From NCBI GenBank assembly GCA_025352065.1, contig JANXUC010000021.1, positions 1 through 64,000 of the forward strand: a DNA stretch of 64,000 nt. Direction: 5' to 3'. The notes beneath the pieces were generated by a model. The model was not told the DNA's origin, searched no databases, and saw only the letters and a list, made by a program, of their open reading frames with translations. Origin of the DNA: Acidobacteriaceae bacterium (GTDB lineage Bacteria; Acidobacteriota; Terriglobia; Terriglobales; Acidobacteriaceae). This document shows positions 48,830 to 59,169 of the stretch, piece after piece. Every line of letters starts with the position of its first letter. Position 1 is the stretch's first letter. A program made the translations under genes and the position numbers.

Positions 48830-49504
48830 ATGACACTTGAATCCCTCGTGGTATCGCAAGACTGGCAGGAAGTTAGTGTGGTGGAGTGCATCCTTGGCGG
48901 CATGCAGATTGGCGTCGCCGTCGAACCGGATCTGGCCAAGGCCCGGCGCTACCTAAGCCGGACCAAAGTTGACGCCATCATTGTCGACTACGATGTGGAC
49001 GGTTCCCACGCATTCGTGAACGGACTGGACCGTATGCACGCCTATCGCGACACCTTCCCGTTGATTGTTATGGGGAGCCGGGGCCATCACGACGAGTTGC
49101 GCAGTAGTGGAGCCGACTTCTTTTTTGACAAGCCGATCTCGGTGGAGCAGGCAGTCCATACGCTCGCAGCGGCTCGCAACAAGATACTGCATGGCCGACT
49201 GCGTTATCACCGGCAAGAGTTGCAGGCACCGGTTGCGATCTTCATCAACGGCAAGCAAATTGGCGGAGAGCTGATGAACGTAAGCCAGGGCGGAATCGGC
49301 GTGTATACGTCGAGCGAATTGCCTATGGGCGAGACGTTGCAGCTCGGATTCTCCATGCCCGGCCGCGAAACGGAAGTGAACGCGAAAGCTAAAGTTGCGT
49401 GGAAGAACGAAAAAGGACAATCGGGGCTGCAGTTTGAAGAAATCGCGGAAAGCGATCAGCAAAACTTGCAGTTGTGGCTGGCTGGACGGTACTTCGAGAA
49501 CTAA
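48830..49504 (+). CDS. Receiver-like plus PilZ-like protein
   Basis: The 224-residue protein has an N-terminal receiver-like domain (about 5-115): VDAIIVDYDVDGSHAF provides a candidate phosphoacceptor at D53 or D55, and FFFDKPIS holds the conserved lysine (K101). The C-terminal part (about 125-220) is PilZ-like: PVAIFINGKQIGGELMNVSQ, then GGIGVYTSSELPMGETLQLG. In it the DxSxxG motif is NVSQGG (Asp replaced by Asn) and the RxxxR arm is non-canonical (GRLRYHR), so binding of c-di-GMP is uncertain. It could couple phosphorylation to an output. No histidine kinase is adjacent. It forms a small envelope-signalling group with the PilZ and GAF genes. Confidence 0.78.
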   Translation: MTLESLVVSQDWQEVSVVECILGGMQIGVAVEPDLAKARRYLSRTKVDAIIVDYDVDGSHAFVNGLDRMHAYRDTFPLIVMGSRGHHDELRSSGADFFFDKPISVEQAVHTLAAARNKILHGRLRYHRQELQAPVAIFINGKQIGGELMNVSQGGIGVYTSSELPMGETLQLGFSMPGRETEVNAKAKVAWKNEKGQSGLQFEEIAESDQQNLQLWLAGRYFEN

Positions 49505-49578: not shown

Positions 49579-49905
49579 TTAAGACGCTCGCGGTACGGGC
49601 GGAGTCGAATCCCTGCGGCGTTTCTGGTCCCAAGCCGTAAGCTTACTTAAATCATAGCTATACGGACCGTAGCTGGTGAAGGTGGGCTCATCAAACAAGC
49701 GTTTGGTACCGCAACCCAAGCAGACCCGGTAAGAGCAGCCTTGCACAGTAACCGGCCAGCTCATCTTGCGGTGCCAGCAGCCGCGCGTTACCAGGACCGC
49801 AAAGCCAGCAATTCCGGTGGCCGCAATGCTTACGGGCAGGAGCCAGCGGGCCTTAGCTTTCGTTTTACCGGGCTCCACACTTTCGGATATCGACTGCACT
49901 TTCAT
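49579..49905 (-). CDS. Small single-pass membrane protein with CxxC motif
   Basis: The 108-residue protein begins MKVQSISESVEPGKTKAKAR from ATG 49905. One hydrophobic segment (about 20-40: WLLPVSIAATGIAGFAVLV) precedes a domain with cysteines in CWHRKMSWP and CSYRVCLGCGTKRLFDEPTF, which could be a small zinc-binding site. I recognise the end SYGPYSYDLSKLTAWDQKR only as a conserved acidobacterial sequence. It is a single gene on the minus strand between a PilZ gene and the GAF-amidase gene, transcribed divergently from the latter. Function unknown. Confidence 0.55.
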   Translation of the reverse strand: MKVQSISESVEPGKTKAKARWLLPVSIAATGIAGFAVLVTRGCWHRKMSWPVTVQGCSYRVCLGCGTKRLFDEPTFTSYGPYSYDLSKLTAWDQKRRRDSTPPVPRAS

Positions 49906-50073
49906 AAAATCAGCATACGGCGGCGGGCGGCGGACTTCAAGAGCACATTTGGGCCTCGATCCCAAACCCGGTACTTAGGGGACATTGCTGGGGGCGAGCG
50001 AAACACTGTAAGTTATTGAAGAGTCAGGCGTGGGGACGATCCCTCGCCAAGAGACGCAGACGATAGAAGCGAA

Positions 50074-52221
50074 ATGAGCAGCAATCCGCACCAGAAGATT
50101 GAGGAGAAGATCGGCGAAATAGGGGCCGCGGAACGGGCGGACGCGAGTCCGATCCTGCCCCTTGGCGCGTCCATTTCTGTTTCTGGCTCCGTGCCCGACC
50201 CGGCGCTGGAGACATTGTTGAGATTCTCCTCCCTGCACGAAGAATTGCAGAGGAAGAAAAAGGAATTGGCGCGGACCGGAGCGAATGCGGGGCGGATTCG
50301 TGGTCAGGTTTTGCAGACCATCGCAGAACGAGCGCTGGCCATTAGCGGAGCCAGCGGGGTAGCGATCGCGCTGGCGGAAGGTCGCGACATTGTTTGCCGA
50401 GGCACGGCTGGAGACACCGCTCCGCCCCTTGGGCTGAAGCTGGATCTTCGAAGCGGAATTACTGCGATTTGCTTTAATACCGGGACCATCGTCCGCTGCG
50501 ACGACTCTGACAAGGATTCGCGCGTTGACCGCGAGGCTTGCCGCGCGCTGGGCGTGCGCTCTGTCGTAGCGGTTCCGCTGAGCGCGCAGCAAACCATTCT
50601 CGGGCTGATCGAAGCCTTCGAGAAAGAGCCTTTCGCCTTTACCGACGGTGACATTCGTGAACTCAGCTTACTCGCGGAGCTGACGGTCGCAGCCCTGCAC
50701 ACGGACGATCCTCGCACCGTTGCCACCGGCAAGAAGCAATTGGACGAGAATGCCGCCGGGCAGACTACTTCTCTGGGGGACTGGACGCAGCTGGCCGGTT
50801 CTGCCGAAGTGCCTGCACTGGTCAGCGCCGCGGCGCTGACGGCCATCGACGATGTTCCTGAACAAGAACGTTTTTCCGCTTACGCCTCTGCGGGTTCCGG
50901 TCGGACCTGGGTGCCTCCTGCGAAACAGTGGGGCGTCGCAACTCTGGCAGTAGCTTTGCTGGTGAGTGGGGGAGGGTGGTGGCGTTCCCACAAGGCCCAA
51001 CCTGCCGTCGCAACCAGCGCGGTGGTGGCACCCACCGCCGCGGGGCCGGTTCCTGCTTCAATGCAGGTGGCGGAAAACACTCTGCTTCCACGCATCACAG
51101 GCCTGCGACACTGGTCGAACGCCGATACCAGCACAGTTGTGATCGACATGCAGGATGAAGTGCCCTACGAAATTCACCGGCTCGCGGCACCGGAACGCAT
51201 TTACGTCGACTTGCACGATTGCGTTCTAAGTCAGGAACTTGCAGGCAAGAACATTGACGTGCAGGACGCGCTTCTCAGCCGCATCAAGATTGGCGCTACA
51301 ACTCCTGGCGTGACCCGCGTCGAACTCGAAACCAGGAACAGTTCAAATTTCTCGGTCAGCCTGGAGCCGAATCCCTATCGCATGGTCCTGGAGATTCGCA
51401 GCCTCCAGGCCGCGCCGAAGCCAAAGCTGGACACACAGGCCGTTTGGCAAAACACGGCACACCCTACTTTTCCTGAAATTTCGAAGAATCCGACGACGGA
51501 AGATATTCGCCTGCGCGCACATGTTCCCAAACTGCGCATCGTAGTCGATGCCGGACACGGTGGCTGGGATATGGGTACGGTCGGTCAACAAGGCTTGCTG
51601 GAAAAAGATTTAGCCCTCGAAATCGCACAACGGTTGGGCGTGTTATTGGAACAGCGACTTGGCCTGGAAGTAATTTACACGCGCTCGGACGACACTTTTG
51701 TCCCGCTCGGGCGTCGCGCTGCCATTGCCAATCAGGTTGGCGCCGACCTTTTCGTTTCAGTGCATGCGAACTACAGCAGCGAATCAGCAGCCCGCGGCGT
51801 GGAAACTTATTACACCTCGAACGGCCCGTCCACACAGGTGCTCGCCGAGGAGGAACGTGAAGTCGGCGCCGCTCCCACACTCAAGCTGGCTGCCTCCGAA
51901 CTGCGGGAGAAGTCCGACGCCTCGCGCAAGCTTGCCGCCAGCGTGCAGCAATCGCTCTACGGAACCCTGGCCGCCAAAAGCCCCGGGGTGCGCAACCGCG
52001 GCGTGAAAGCAGCATCATTTGTCGTACTGACCGGAACCACCATGCCAGCGATTTTGGCGGAAGTTTCCTTCGTCAGCAGTCCCACCGACGAACACAACCT
52101 GCAGGATCCGTTCTACCGGCAGAATATCGCCGAAGCGCTCTACCGCGGTATCGCGCGCTATGCTGCGGGCACCAGGAAGACGAATGTCGCCAGCGCGGCG
52201 AAGCAGGACACTGGAATGTAA
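50074..52221 (+). CDS. GAF-TM-AMIN-amidase_3 fusion: N-acetylmuramoyl-L-alanine amidase
   Basis: The 715-residue product combines four parts. A GAF domain (about 78-208) contains GVAIALAEGRDIVCRGTAGD and ALGVRSVVAVPLS. One membrane helix (about 285-300: WGVATLAVALLVSGGGW) follows. Then an AMIN-like beta domain (about 335-445: PYEIHRLAAPERIYVDLHDC) and an Amidase_3 domain (about 487-698). The catalytic zinc site is complete: H495 in VDAGHGGWD, E510 in LLEKDL, H564 in SVHANYS and E663 in LAEVSF. With the membrane helix, the GAF domain should be cytoplasmic and the AMIN and amidase parts periplasmic. The enzyme would cleave peptidoglycan stem peptides at cell division or outgrowth. A GAF domain on an amidase is unusual, and two nearby genes have closely related GAF domains. 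Confidence 0.88.
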   Translation: MSSNPHQKIEEKIGEIGAAERADASPILPLGASISVSGSVPDPALETLLRFSSLHEELQRKKKELARTGANAGRIRGQVLQTIAERALAISGASGVAIALAEGRDIVCRGTAGDTAPPLGLKLDLRSGITAICFNTGTIVRCDDSDKDSRVDREACRALGVRSVVAVPLSAQQTILGLIEAFEKEPFAFTDGDIRELSLLAELTVAALHTDDPRTVATGKKQLDENAAGQTTSLGDWTQLAGSAEVPALVSAAALTAIDDVPEQERFSAYASAGSGRTWVPPAKQWGVATLAVALLVSGGGWWRSHKAQPAVATSAVVAPTAAGPVPASMQVAENTLLPRITGLRHWSNADTSTVVIDMQDEVPYEIHRLAAPERIYVDLHDCVLSQELAGKNIDVQDALLSRIKIGATTPGVTRVELETRNSSNFSVSLEPNPYRMVLEIRSLQAAPKPKLDTQAVWQNTAHPTFPEISKNPTTEDIRLRAHVPKLRIVVDAGHGGWDMGTVGQQGLLEKDLALEIAQRLGVLLEQRLGLEVIYTRSDDTFVPLGRRAAIANQVGADLFVSVHANYSSESAARGVETYYTSNGPSTQVLAEEEREVGAAPTLKLAASELREKSDASRKLAASVQQSLYGTLAAKSPGVRNRGVKAASFVVLTGTTMPAILAEVSFVSSPTDEHNLQDPFYRQNIAEALYRGIARYAAGTRKTNVASAAKQDTGM

Positions 52222-55328: not shown

Positions 55329-57074
55329 TCAGCGAGCAGTTGTCGAGTCCTCTGCATTGGTCGAGTGCGCCCGACTCCATTCGCGAAGCCGCTGCTGCAC
55401 TTCCACCATGTCCGCGCGGCTCAAGCGAGCGGCCAGAACATCCACGCGCTGCTTGCTGATTTCATCGTTGCCGGAACGAGCCAGGGCCGACCAGAAGTAG
55501 GCCTGCTTTAAATCCTTCGGAACGCCGCGTCCTACCCAGTAATATGCTCCGAGAATTCCCTGCGCCGGAGCATACCCGCTTAGAGCGGCGCGCTGAAACC
55601 AATATGCGGCCTTGGTGTGATCCTGCACAACGCCTTCGCCGCTGGCGTACTTCGCGCCCATCTTAAATTGCGAAGGCACGTCCCCCTGGCGCGCTGCCTG
55701 CCGCAGAGCGTCAATCGAAGCAGGAGAGTCGGGGACTGTTTCCTTCGCAAAACTCGGGTTCGTCCGGGATGGGAGGCTATTTGGAACCGAAGCAACCGAC
55801 GTCTTAGCAGATTGCGTCCGCTCAGTCCGATATCGCGCGGCGTCTGGTTTCCGCCCGAGCGACAAGAGCGTTTTCCCCTGACTCACTACCAGCCACGTCA
55901 CCGGAACCACGACAGCAACCACCGCCACGGCGAGCAAAGCGCGCAAATGCAGGGGCAAGCTCCGCACGCCAGCTCCGCGATTGTATCTCTGACGTTGCCG
56001 GTCAAGCTCTTCCAAATCAAGAATGTCTTCGCGACTCAGGGGATACCGCGCGCTTAGCGCAGCTTGTTCGACACTCTGTCTTTGACCTTCCAAAGACCGA
56101 TCACTACGCAGCACGCCGGAAGGAACTTCCGCAAACAGCAAACCAATCACTGGGCGTGCCAGCATATCCAGAATCTTGGCGTCTCCCGGATCAAACGCTC
56201 CTGTCCGTTGCGACAACACTTCCAGCAAACCAACCACACGCTCTCTAGCAAAAAGAGGCAACGCCAAGAAAGAGCGAATGCCAAGGTCGGCACAAATTTC
56301 TCTGTCCACACGTGGATCCGAAGACGCATCACGGCAATACATTACGCTCGCTGTCCGAATGCATTCCCCCGTCAGCCCCGTGCTCACGGAAATATTCGAG
56401 CCCAACCCCGGAGTATCGGTCCCGCAGGTCGCGCGACAAACGAGTTGGCTGCCTTCAAACAGCGCCAGCGCCGCGCCCTTCGCACCTGTAAGCGCAAGCG
56501 CACGGCTAACTATCGCGTTTGTCTCACGCTCCAGCGGAGAGAAACATTTTTCGGACTGCTGCTCATCCAACGGCTCTTCGTCACGGAAAAGTTCAGGATG
56601 CGGGTCAGGTCCGCCAACTGCATCGGTGGCTGCACTGGCTTCGTCGAGCGACCGTTTCCCGTCCTGTGGCAACAGTTCGGTAATGCGACCGTCGTCTGTC
56701 GCCTGCGCTACCGCATTCAGGAACAACCATTGCTGAATTTGCTGCAGCGCTTTCTGATCCAGCGAAAAGAATCGCACCCCTGCGCGGCCTGAAGAATCCG
56801 ACCAAGCCACCTGACCAATCAATCGAAGATGTTGGCCATCGAATTCGAGATCCAGTGCGAGCGTACGCTCAAGCTGCAAGGCGGTTGCAGCCTCAACCCC
56901 GATGCCGTCCTCCGAGAGATCAACGACTTTGCTGGGAGAGGAACTGACGGCAGGGCCGCGCAGACGCACAGTTGCCAGCCCGCGCAGCGGGTGTCGAACC
57001 TGGCGACGGCGTTCAAGCCCCGTACCAAAATTCGACCGTAAAGCCGTGGTGGCTTGCAAGTTAGGCTTGCTCAT
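55329..57074 (-). CDS. PilZ-GAF-TM-Sel1 protein
   Basis: The 581-residue protein starts with a PilZ domain (about 20-125). The RxxxR motif is in ERRRQVRHPLRG and the DxSxxG motif in KVVDLSEDGIGVEA, both canonical for c-di-GMP. A GAF domain follows (about 180-320: AALALFEGSQLVCRATCGTD, DLGIRSFLALPLFARERVVG), closely related to those at 50074 and 57135. One membrane helix (about 377-400: LRALLAVAVVAVVVPVTWLV) leads to a C-terminal periplasmic part with Sel1-like repeats (PSQFKMGAKYASGEGVVQDH, YAPAQGILGAYYWVGRGVPK). It may read c-di-GMP and a small ligand inside and bind partners outside. It lies 60 bases after the GAF gene at 57135, probably in one operon. Confidence 0.85.
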   Translation of the reverse strand: MSKPNLQATTALRSNFGTGLERRRQVRHPLRGLATVRLRGPAVSSSPSKVVDLSEDGIGVEAATALQLERTLALDLEFDGQHLRLIGQVAWSDSSGRAGVRFFSLDQKALQQIQQWLFLNAVAQATDDGRITELLPQDGKRSLDEASAATDAVGGPDPHPELFRDEEPLDEQQSEKCFSPLERETNAIVSRALALTGAKGAALALFEGSQLVCRATCGTDTPGLGSNISVSTGLTGECIRTASVMYCRDASSDPRVDREICADLGIRSFLALPLFARERVVGLLEVLSQRTGAFDPGDAKILDMLARPVIGLLFAEVPSGVLRSDRSLEGQRQSVEQAALSARYPLSREDILDLEELDRQRQRYNRGAGVRSLPLHLRALLAVAVVAVVVPVTWLVVSQGKTLLSLGRKPDAARYRTERTQSAKTSVASVPNSLPSRTNPSFAKETVPDSPASIDALRQAARQGDVPSQFKMGAKYASGEGVVQDHTKAAYWFQRAALSGYAPAQGILGAYYWVGRGVPKDLKQAYFWSALARSGNDEISKQRVDVLAARLSRADMVEVQQRLREWSRAHSTNAEDSTTAR

Positions 57075-57134: not shown

Positions 57135-57959
57135 TTAGGCCGTGCGTGCCTGCCGGTCCACCACACGGCTGATCGCCGCCACCATCATCCCAGACAGCAT
57201 TTGCATGGTCGCAACGTCGCGATGATCGAACGCGTAGGGAGAAGCCGAGAGCACTTCAAAGATTCCCAGCGTCCGTTGGAAATAGCGAATGGGAGAGACC
57301 AAGATTGATCGTACTCCCAAGCGCCTGCTGACAGAAGGATCAACGTTCGGATTCGACTCCGTATCATGGCACAGCAAAATTTCGCCAGTCCGCACGCACT
57401 GCCCGGAAATGCCAGACTCCGTTTGCAGGCGCACGCCAAGATCCGGCGCAGTTCGCCCAGCGCGTGCGCGACACACAATTTCACTTCCACGATTGAGCGC
57501 AATCGCGGCTCCAGTGGCGCGAGTCATCACCTGGGCGCGATCCGCAATAATATCGACCGCAGGATTCAGATCCAGGTCGAACGCTGAAATATTCTCCAGC
57601 ACAGCCTTCTTCGGACGGGGCGTAACCGCAACCTGGTTGTTGACCAATTGCAAATTAACTTTTCGGCGTGCGGCTGTAGCAAACTCTTCCTCATGCTCGG
57701 CATCGGAATGCGCTTCCACGGGAATAGATTGCAGCAACTCGCGCACCACGCGATCCAGCGCGGCATCTTGAATCAGATTCGCCGTCGACTGGTGCCGCAG
57801 CGATCCTCCCATCAAGCGCGACAAGCTCAGAAGAGCCTTACTGCCACAGGCCAGGCATGCGACCGTGTTGTTTTCACTGATCTGTTCGCATTCGGCGCAA
57901 AACACAGCGGCTTGCAGCGGAACAAAATTTACATCGCGTGCGGTCATCCACCGGTACAT
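57135..57959 (-). CDS. GAF protein with zinc-ribbon head
   Basis: The product is 274 residues from ATG 57959, with AGGAGG nine bases upstream; a longer frame exists but lacks this support. Residues 21-38 form a C-x2-C ... C-x2-C zinc ribbon (FCAECEQ, ACLACGS). A linker with a coiled or flexible region (about 50-125) follows. The GAF domain (about 130-270) contains ATGAAIALNRGSEIVCRARA, then RRLGVRSILVSPIRYFQRTL. It has no membrane helix, unlike the other two GAF proteins, and no catalytic domain. It is the first of a probable minus-strand operon with the PilZ-GAF-Sel1 gene, and lies 112 bases downstream of wecB. It may act as a soluble sensor. Confidence 0.8.
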   Translation of the reverse strand: MYRWMTARDVNFVPLQAAVFCAECEQISENNTVACLACGSKALLSLSRLMGGSLRHQSTANLIQDAALDRVVRELLQSIPVEAHSDAEHEEEFATAARRKVNLQLVNNQVAVTPRPKKAVLENISAFDLDLNPAVDIIADRAQVMTRATGAAIALNRGSEIVCRARAGRTAPDLGVRLQTESGISGQCVRTGEILLCHDTESNPNVDPSVSRRLGVRSILVSPIRYFQRTLGIFEVLSASPYAFDHRDVATMQMLSGMMVAAISRVVDRQARTA

Positions 57960-58071
57960 CCCTTGGATCCTCCTACAACTTGGGGAATGCTGAGGATAAA
58001 TCGCAGCCGAGCACCGCGCGAGTGGCGGAATAGATTCCGCTGTGGATTTCTTGGAAGAAATCCGAATAGGC

Positions 58072-59169
58072 CTAACTGCAAAGAACCTTCGCAATACGTT
58101 CAGCCGCATGCCCATCCCACAAAGGAATCGCGCACGCTCCCGGGACCGGACTCGCTAGCACCCTCTGCAACTCCTGACGCAGCCGCGAAATATCCCGCCC
58201 CACCAGCGTGTTCGTTCCCGCCGTCAGCGTAATCGGACGCTCCGTATTTTCGCGCACCGTCAGGCATGGTACTCCAAGAAAGGAAGTCTCTTCCTGGATT
58301 CCGCCAGAGTCGGTAATCACCACGCGAGCCGCTCTCTGCATAACAAGAAACTCCAGGTACGGCAGCGGCGGCAGCAATCGAAGCCGGCCATCATTAGCGG
58401 GAAGAAATCCCGCCTCGGCGATGCGCTGCTGCGTGCGCGGATGCAGCGGAAAGACCACAGGGAGTTCACGGCCAACCTCCAGCATCGCCATCAACATTTC
58501 CCGTAACCAAGGCAGGTCATCCACATTCGCGGGCCTGTGCAGCGTCACCAAAACAAAGGGTCCGAGCCTCGCCACTTCTCCCGGCGTCTCAGCCTGCGGC
58601 AGGAGGCGCACCAGCGTGTCAATCATCACGTTACCCACCAGATGAATCTTCTCCGCCGCAATTCCCTCTTGCAGCAAGTTTGCGTCGCCATCAGACGACG
58701 GCGTAAACAACAAATCCGACAGCTGATCCGTCAACAGCCGGTTAATCTCTTCCGGCATCGACCGATCCCGTGAGCGCAGCCCGGCTTCCACGTGCGCAAC
58801 TCGAACCTGCAGCTTTGCGCATACCAACGCAGCCGCTGCTGTCGAATTTACATCCCCGTAAACCACAACCCAGTCCGGCTTGTACTCCAAAACTACAGGC
58901 TCAAATCGAGCCATGACTTCAGCCGTCTGCTGCGCGTGACTCCCCGAACCCACAGACAGATTTACGTCAGGCGCAGGCATCCCGAGCTGCTGAAAGAAAA
59001 CATCCGACATACTCGCGTCATAGTGCTGCCCGGTATGCACCAATGTCTGTCTAAGGGGAGTCTGCGCAAGCGAGGTCTGCCGCGCACTGCCGCGCTCCGC
59101 CAGCGCCCGCAGCACCGGGGCTGCCTTCATAAAGTTGGGGCGCGCTCCTACAACATGAAGAATGTGCAT
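58072..59169 (-). CDS. wecB: UDP-N-acetylglucosamine 2-epimerase (non-hydrolysing)
   Basis: The 365-residue enzyme interconverts UDP-GlcNAc and UDP-ManNAc for surface polysaccharides. Start MHILHVVGARPNFMKAAPVL is typical. Other diagnostic parts are TGQHYDASMSDVFFQQLGMP, HVEAGLRSRDRSMPEEINRL, VTLHRPANVD (with catalytic His) and RVVITDSGGIQEETSFLGVP. Glutamates in VEAGLRS and QEETSF are conserved. ATG 59169 is 47 bases after the WecA-like gene, same strand, so the two are probably co-transcribed and serve the same polysaccharide. Confidence 0.95.
   Translation of the reverse strand: MHILHVVGARPNFMKAAPVLRALAERGSARQTSLAQTPLRQTLVHTGQHYDASMSDVFFQQLGMPAPDVNLSVGSGSHAQQTAEVMARFEPVVLEYKPDWVVVYGDVNSTAAAALVCAKLQVRVAHVEAGLRSRDRSMPEEINRLLTDQLSDLLFTPSSDGDANLLQEGIAAEKIHLVGNVMIDTLVRLLPQAETPGEVARLGPFVLVTLHRPANVDDLPWLREMLMAMLEVGRELPVVFPLHPRTQQRIAEAGFLPANDGRLRLLPPLPYLEFLVMQRAARVVITDSGGIQEETSFLGVPCLTVRENTERPITLTAGTNTLVGRDISRLRQELQRVLASPVPGACAIPLWDGHAAERIAKVLCS

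Follow-up and report, generated by a model that had tools for sequence, protein, structure and literature searches.

In AmiA of Escherichia coli, a blocking helix occludes the zinc, which it binds through Glu167, and a neighbouring interaction helix (L184, L185, V188, L189, L192) docks in the LytM groove of EnvC and thereby pulls the blocking helix off (PMC10268282). In the FtsEX-EnvC-AmiA/B system, it is a cytoplasmic event that is thought to control the periplasmic amidase (PMC7668044, PMC10268282). That system distributes the task over an ABC transporter, a LytM activator and an amidase that is a protein of its own, whereas the fusion described here carries its cytoplasmic domain in the same chain as the amidase and seems to do without the LytM step. 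LytH is not known to carry a GAF domain, and its control lies with a second, multi-pass protein. Like the fusion, LytH with ActH (PDB 7tj4) is a membrane-held Amidase_3 enzyme, and its catalytic domain matches that of the fusion structurally.

Among the closest known systems are also the amidases AmiA, AmiB and AmiC of E. coli with EnvC/NlpD: the AMIN and Amidase_3 domains of the fusion are co-linear with those of AmiC (PDB 4bin), and with AmiA it shares the His-Glu-His zinc ligands and the catalytic glutamate. It differs from all three in that a cytoplasmic GAF domain and a membrane helix take the place of the N-terminal signal peptide, and in that the module of blocking and interaction helices is degenerate. 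The source genome also keeps an exported-type AMIN-Amidase_3 paralogue (contig C105), which is 56% identical in the amidase domain, but has an export-signal-like start, a TPR part and an intact regulatory segment (ARENA...LQDLVKKI). The original prediction knew of no described system with such a layout, and indeed no paper on a GAF-amidase fusion was found in the literature searched, which was short on subscription journals.

Frame and domain layout

The fusion is encoded in a single unbroken frame of 715 amino acids from the ATG at 50074 (Table 1) of the window, that is, the whole stretch of 64,000 nt analysed, across which Rfam and tRNA scans gave no match. Pfam matches to GAF_2 (78-209, 1e-12), AMIN (344-436, 1.5e-8) and Amidase_3 (489-694, 5.6e-51) all exceed the curated cut-offs of that database. 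With a profile of the fusion family, the AMIN and amidase parts align jointly to AmiC of E. coli (4bin, E 2e-57); the GAF part aligns to solved GAF domains. AlphaFold modelled the full length with no more than fair confidence (mean pLDDT 59); the model shows the GAF domain, a helix at 282-300, the AMIN sandwich and the amidase, and leaves two linkers (210-284 and 298-335) unstructured. The layout read earlier from the letters, consisting of GAF (about 78-208), one helix (about 285-300), AMIN and a complete zinc amidase, is thus borne out by Pfam, AlphaFold and the homologues. The zinc ligands and the catalytic Glu are identical in all 33 homologues and, together with the PF01520 match, assign the protein to Amidase_3. 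Judged by its sequence, the fusion is an AmiC-type (AMIN plus Amidase_3) zinc N-acetylmuramoyl-L-alanine amidase, which should be catalytically competent.

Table 1 Features of the fusion gene and of its neighbours in the window
Feature	Position	Strand	Basis
Whole fusion gene, 715 aa, GAF-linker-membrane helix-linker-AMIN-Amidase_3	50074..52221	+	Frame, Pfam, homologues
GAF domain, residues 78-209, Cys-rich acidobacterial subfamily (C108, C133, C142, C156)	50305..50700	+	Pfam, model, dN/dS
Cytoplasmic linker, residues 210-284, low identity, pLDDT <50	50701..50925	+	
Single membrane helix, residues ~285-303	50926..50982	+	Hydropathy of homologues, AlphaFold
AMIN domain, residues 344-436	51103..51381	+	Pfam, profile against AmiC
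Amidase_3 catalytic domain, residues 489-694; zinc ligands H495, E510, H564; catalytic E663	51538..52155	+	
Degenerate segment, residues 581-612, at the site of the AmiA-type blocking/interaction helices	51814..51909	+	Alignment; PMC10268282
Receiver-like + PilZ protein, conserved neighbour (5 loci)	48830..49504	+	Pfam, gene order
Small divergent protein, one hydrophobic segment and CxxC, no Pfam family, adjoins the fusion in 7 loci	49579..49965	-	
Paralogous PilZ-GAF-membrane helix-Sel1 repeats protein; relatives near the fusion in several genera	55329..57074	-	
Soluble paralogous GAF protein, N-terminal CxxC motifs	57135..58115	-	

The LytM-operated regulatory element

For this element, AmiA and AmiC of strain K-12 were aligned with 84 acidobacterial amidases, 49 of them without GAF and 35 GAF-linked (33 fusions plus two pieces from contig ends that cluster with the fusions). 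Throughout the 49 amidases without GAF the regulatory segment is constant at 38 amino acids (57% identity) with a pattern of the ARENA...LQDLVKKI type, and each has Glu at the latch column and hydrophobic residues at the columns of AmiA L185, V188 and L192. In every one of the 35 GAF-linked amidases the segment is degenerate, being 12-56 amino acids long and 25% identical; outside this segment identity in the domain is 74%, and the equivalents of AmiA His65, Glu80, His133 and Glu242 are kept in all aligned amidases. A new observation here is this degeneration of the regulatory element in GAF-linked amidases with intact zinc ligands.

Only seven of the 35 GAF-linked amidases have Glu at the zinc-latch column of AmiA, the copy in the window among them: its Glu-rich stretch VLAEEEREVGA aligns with the zinc-latching Glu167, and a residual latch is possible. 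As for the hydrophobic interaction helix, the LytM-docking element, this copy lacks it: P, K and S occupy the columns of AmiA L185, V188 and L192. Because the Glu-rich stretch is retained, the loss of the interaction helix is the only one that is firm for the window copy. With most of the blocking/interaction-helix module lost, the amidase therefore probably is not latched in the LytM way. Two M23 proteins, either of which might be a dedicated LytM activator, are found in the source genome.

On the amidase tree, all GAF-amidase fusions form one group (SH-aLRT 91) separate from the ordinary exported paralogue, a single grouping that is not certain, as the search was a 'quick' one; the regulatory segment was omitted. 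Loss of the element therefore has to be counted as one correlated change and not as many; its link with the GAF domain is a single co-occurrence, and from the sequences at hand the loss looks like one event in related sequences. Repeated independent fusions were considered since a first FastTree run put the long-branch sequences L044 and L045 outside the group, but were rejected when a better model without the regulatory segment regrouped all of them.

GAF domain, linkers and membrane anchoring

The GAF region, modelled alone, folds confidently (pLDDT 89, pTM 0.85) as the original prediction had it: the best structural matches (Foldseek) include the GAF domains of PtsP, fRMsr, DevS and phosphodiesterases, and VIA-align gives a Z of 19.5 to that of PtsP (rmsd 2.7 over 152 residues). 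In pairs of close relatives, dN/dS is 0.01-0.08 for the GAF domain, 0.00-0.10 for AMIN, 0.05-0.08 for the amidase (one unchanged pair was not computable) and 0.2-0.55 for the linker between GAF and helix; constraint on the GAF domain is equal to or stronger than that on the amidase. From the low dN/dS it follows that the GAF domain matters. This bears on the notion that it is a passive anchor, a cytoplasmic plug or dimerisation knob which holds the amidase at the membrane and senses nothing. Long and flexible linkers would suit such a role, as would tethering by the signal-anchor helix alone, but against it stand the position of the GAF among the slowest-evolving parts, the identity of C142, D148, R150 and V151 in all 33 homologues and the recurrence of the same GAF subfamily with other effectors and as soluble proteins; we consider it quite unlikely.

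The cysteines of the subfamily are widely kept, C142 in 74, C133 in 66, C156 in 63 and C108 in 58 of 76 distinct GAF domains. Secondary structure would place C133, C142 and C156 on elements around the usual GAF pocket, and a redox, metal or covalent cofactor would therefore be the first candidate to consider. An fRMsr-like enzymatic GAF was rejected: the fRMsr/MsrC domains are among the best fold matches and likewise bear cysteines, but neither C133 nor C142 falls on a catalytic cysteine of E. coli MsrC, and C156 lies one residue off an MsrC cysteine in an alignment of low identity.

As the original prediction suggested, a ligand might also gate the enzyme directly; a small molecule or redox change in the GAF domain would then alter the dimer geometry, move the helix and switch the periplasmic amidase on or off. 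The confidently modelled fold, the conserved positions of C133, C142 and C156, the general role of GAF domains as sensors and the absence of the standard switch from the amidase are all in agreement with this. No known ligand motif is present, however; the NKFDE motif of cyclic-nucleotide GAF domains is absent and residues 78-209 contain no N-K pair. The linkers also speak against it: across homologues, the one between GAF and helix is 67-176 amino acids long, rich in A/P/E and 25% identical on average, the one between helix and AMIN is 36-98 amino acids long with a mean identity of 20%, and Pfam matched neither HAMP nor another transmission domain in them. Linkers so long, variable and disordered make a rigid allosteric relay unlikely, and direct gating seems rather unlikely to us.

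The helix of the window copy is weak when taken alone, with a hydropathy below 1.6 on the Kyte-Doolittle scale (QWGVATLAVALLVSGGGWW). AlphaFold nevertheless predicts a helix at this site, and the other 32 of the 33 homologues have a clear hydrophobic segment of 19 residues there (1.7-3.1), the window copy being the weakest; a GG-x-WW motif usually follows. The hydrophobic segment thus holds up as a helix. A cleaved N-terminal export signal as in AmiC is not found: the N-terminus of the fusion runs into the GAF domain, the one helix is internal, and no AxA cleavage motif after it is conserved among the homologues. These data support a signal-anchor arrangement, and with it the earlier claim that the protein lacks a cleavable signal peptide and should stay tethered. 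The charges on either side of the helix favour neither topology; we infer a type II protein of the inner membrane with a cytoplasmic GAF domain and a periplasmic amidase because no N-terminal signal precedes the GAF domain and the substrate of AMIN-amidases is periplasmic. Two products, an exported amidase and a soluble GAF protein, would result from proteolysis or internal initiation at the helix, which read alone could act as a signal sequence and in the window copy has an in-frame GTG six codons ahead of it; yet among the homologues no internal start and no ribosome site is conserved ahead of the helix, and no AxA motif after it, and this outcome is very unlikely.

We infer that the GAF domain controls the amidase, and to the following form of control we would assign about an even chance: a tethered AmiC-type amidase without LytM latch is governed by where, and with whom, the cytoplasmic GAF domain places it. 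The amidase would be anchored in the inner membrane with the GAF domain in the cytoplasm and, without most of the blocking/interaction-helix module, might be competent or nearly so. The binding state, partners or self-association of the GAF domain would then set where, when and in what assembly the enzyme meets peptidoglycan, so that control would lie in placement and clustering and not in a rigid conformational relay.

Distribution, related GAF proteins and meaning of the fusion

The fusion profile, run against 300 genomes from the family of the source, yielded about 69 full-length matches spanning GAF to amidase, in about 24 of 79 genera. Among 396 genomes sampled from the phylum, fusions are confined to the acidobacterial family of the source; outside it, matches start at or just before AMIN and represent only AMIN-amidases without GAF. 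Named records with the fusion are metagenome assemblies of Acidobacteria 'gp1' and Acidobacteriaceae, and the six loci from a contig scan by exact short patterns include no fusion outside Acidobacteria. Two exported-type AMIN-amidases (L047 8816-10636, L052 491-2224) have an extra hydrophobic segment C-terminal of the catalytic domain. The window genome being a draft of 183 contigs, an assembly or annotation error or a pseudogene might be suspected, but the full-length homologues in independent assemblies and the strong purifying selection lead us to reject an assembly fusion or frameshift, and the probability of any such artefact is negligible; the in-frame stops that some homologues seem to have all precede the start, and none falls between domains. 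The possibility of a misassembled fusion, which the original prediction had itself raised, is thereby answered by its recurrence in many assemblies. Gene order is also partly kept across several genera, the kept parts reading clpX-lon-engB-epimerase-(receiver+PilZ)-small divergent protein-fusion-S9 peptidase or radical SAM-(PilZ-GAF-helix-Sel1)-GAF.

The source genome contains eight GAF domains of this subfamily: in the fusion, in a PilZ-GAF-helix-Sel1 protein, in two GAF-helix-TonB_C proteins, in a GAF-PilZ protein, in two soluble proteins and in one GAF-helix protein with an unnamed C-terminus. Relatives have the same GAF architectures and, in addition, GAF-helix-AMIN proteins without amidase (as in L053 7665-9227) and C-terminally anchored GAF domains. 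In the window, the PilZ protein at 55329-57074 combines a possible c-di-GMP domain and the same GAF with a presumably periplasmic Sel1 part, and a CxxC...CxxC stretch ahead of the GAF domain at 57135-58115 resembles a zinc ribbon. GAF-membrane helix-TonB_C proteins recur (L119 433-2007, L122 1366-3003, L128 191-1699, L130 265-1950), and two GAF-helix proteins (L123 1195-2961, L143 775-2133) have in common a C-terminal motif VWVD...YYCxG... without Pfam name. A possible, if doubtful, wider reading is that of a transmembrane signalling hydrolase in one polypeptide, in which a Cys-rich GAF domain sensing redox state or metal would control a latch-free amidase, within an acidobacterial set whose shared GAF module would drive amidase, TonB-like and Sel1 effectors across the inner membrane. 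Three points go beyond the original prediction: the LytM-dependent regulatory element has been lost, the fusions fall into one group next to an exported paralogue, and GAF domains are linked across the membrane in a wider set of proteins.

How wall-cutting enzymes outside the membrane are controlled from the cytoplasm is a central question of bacterial growth, and the known answers rely on separate relay proteins, such as FtsEX-EnvC, whereas the fusion joins the cytoplasmic domain and the hydrolase. As both are in one chain and the usual latch is largely gone, domain swaps and point mutations offer a simple way to test how an intracellular domain exerts control. Having lost the safety catch of its ordinary relatives, the fusion hints at a different way of restraining a dangerous wall-cutting enzyme, and the same GAF domain also occurs with TonB-like and Sel1 parts, which suggests that the inside may act on the envelope more widely in this little-studied phylum of soil bacteria.
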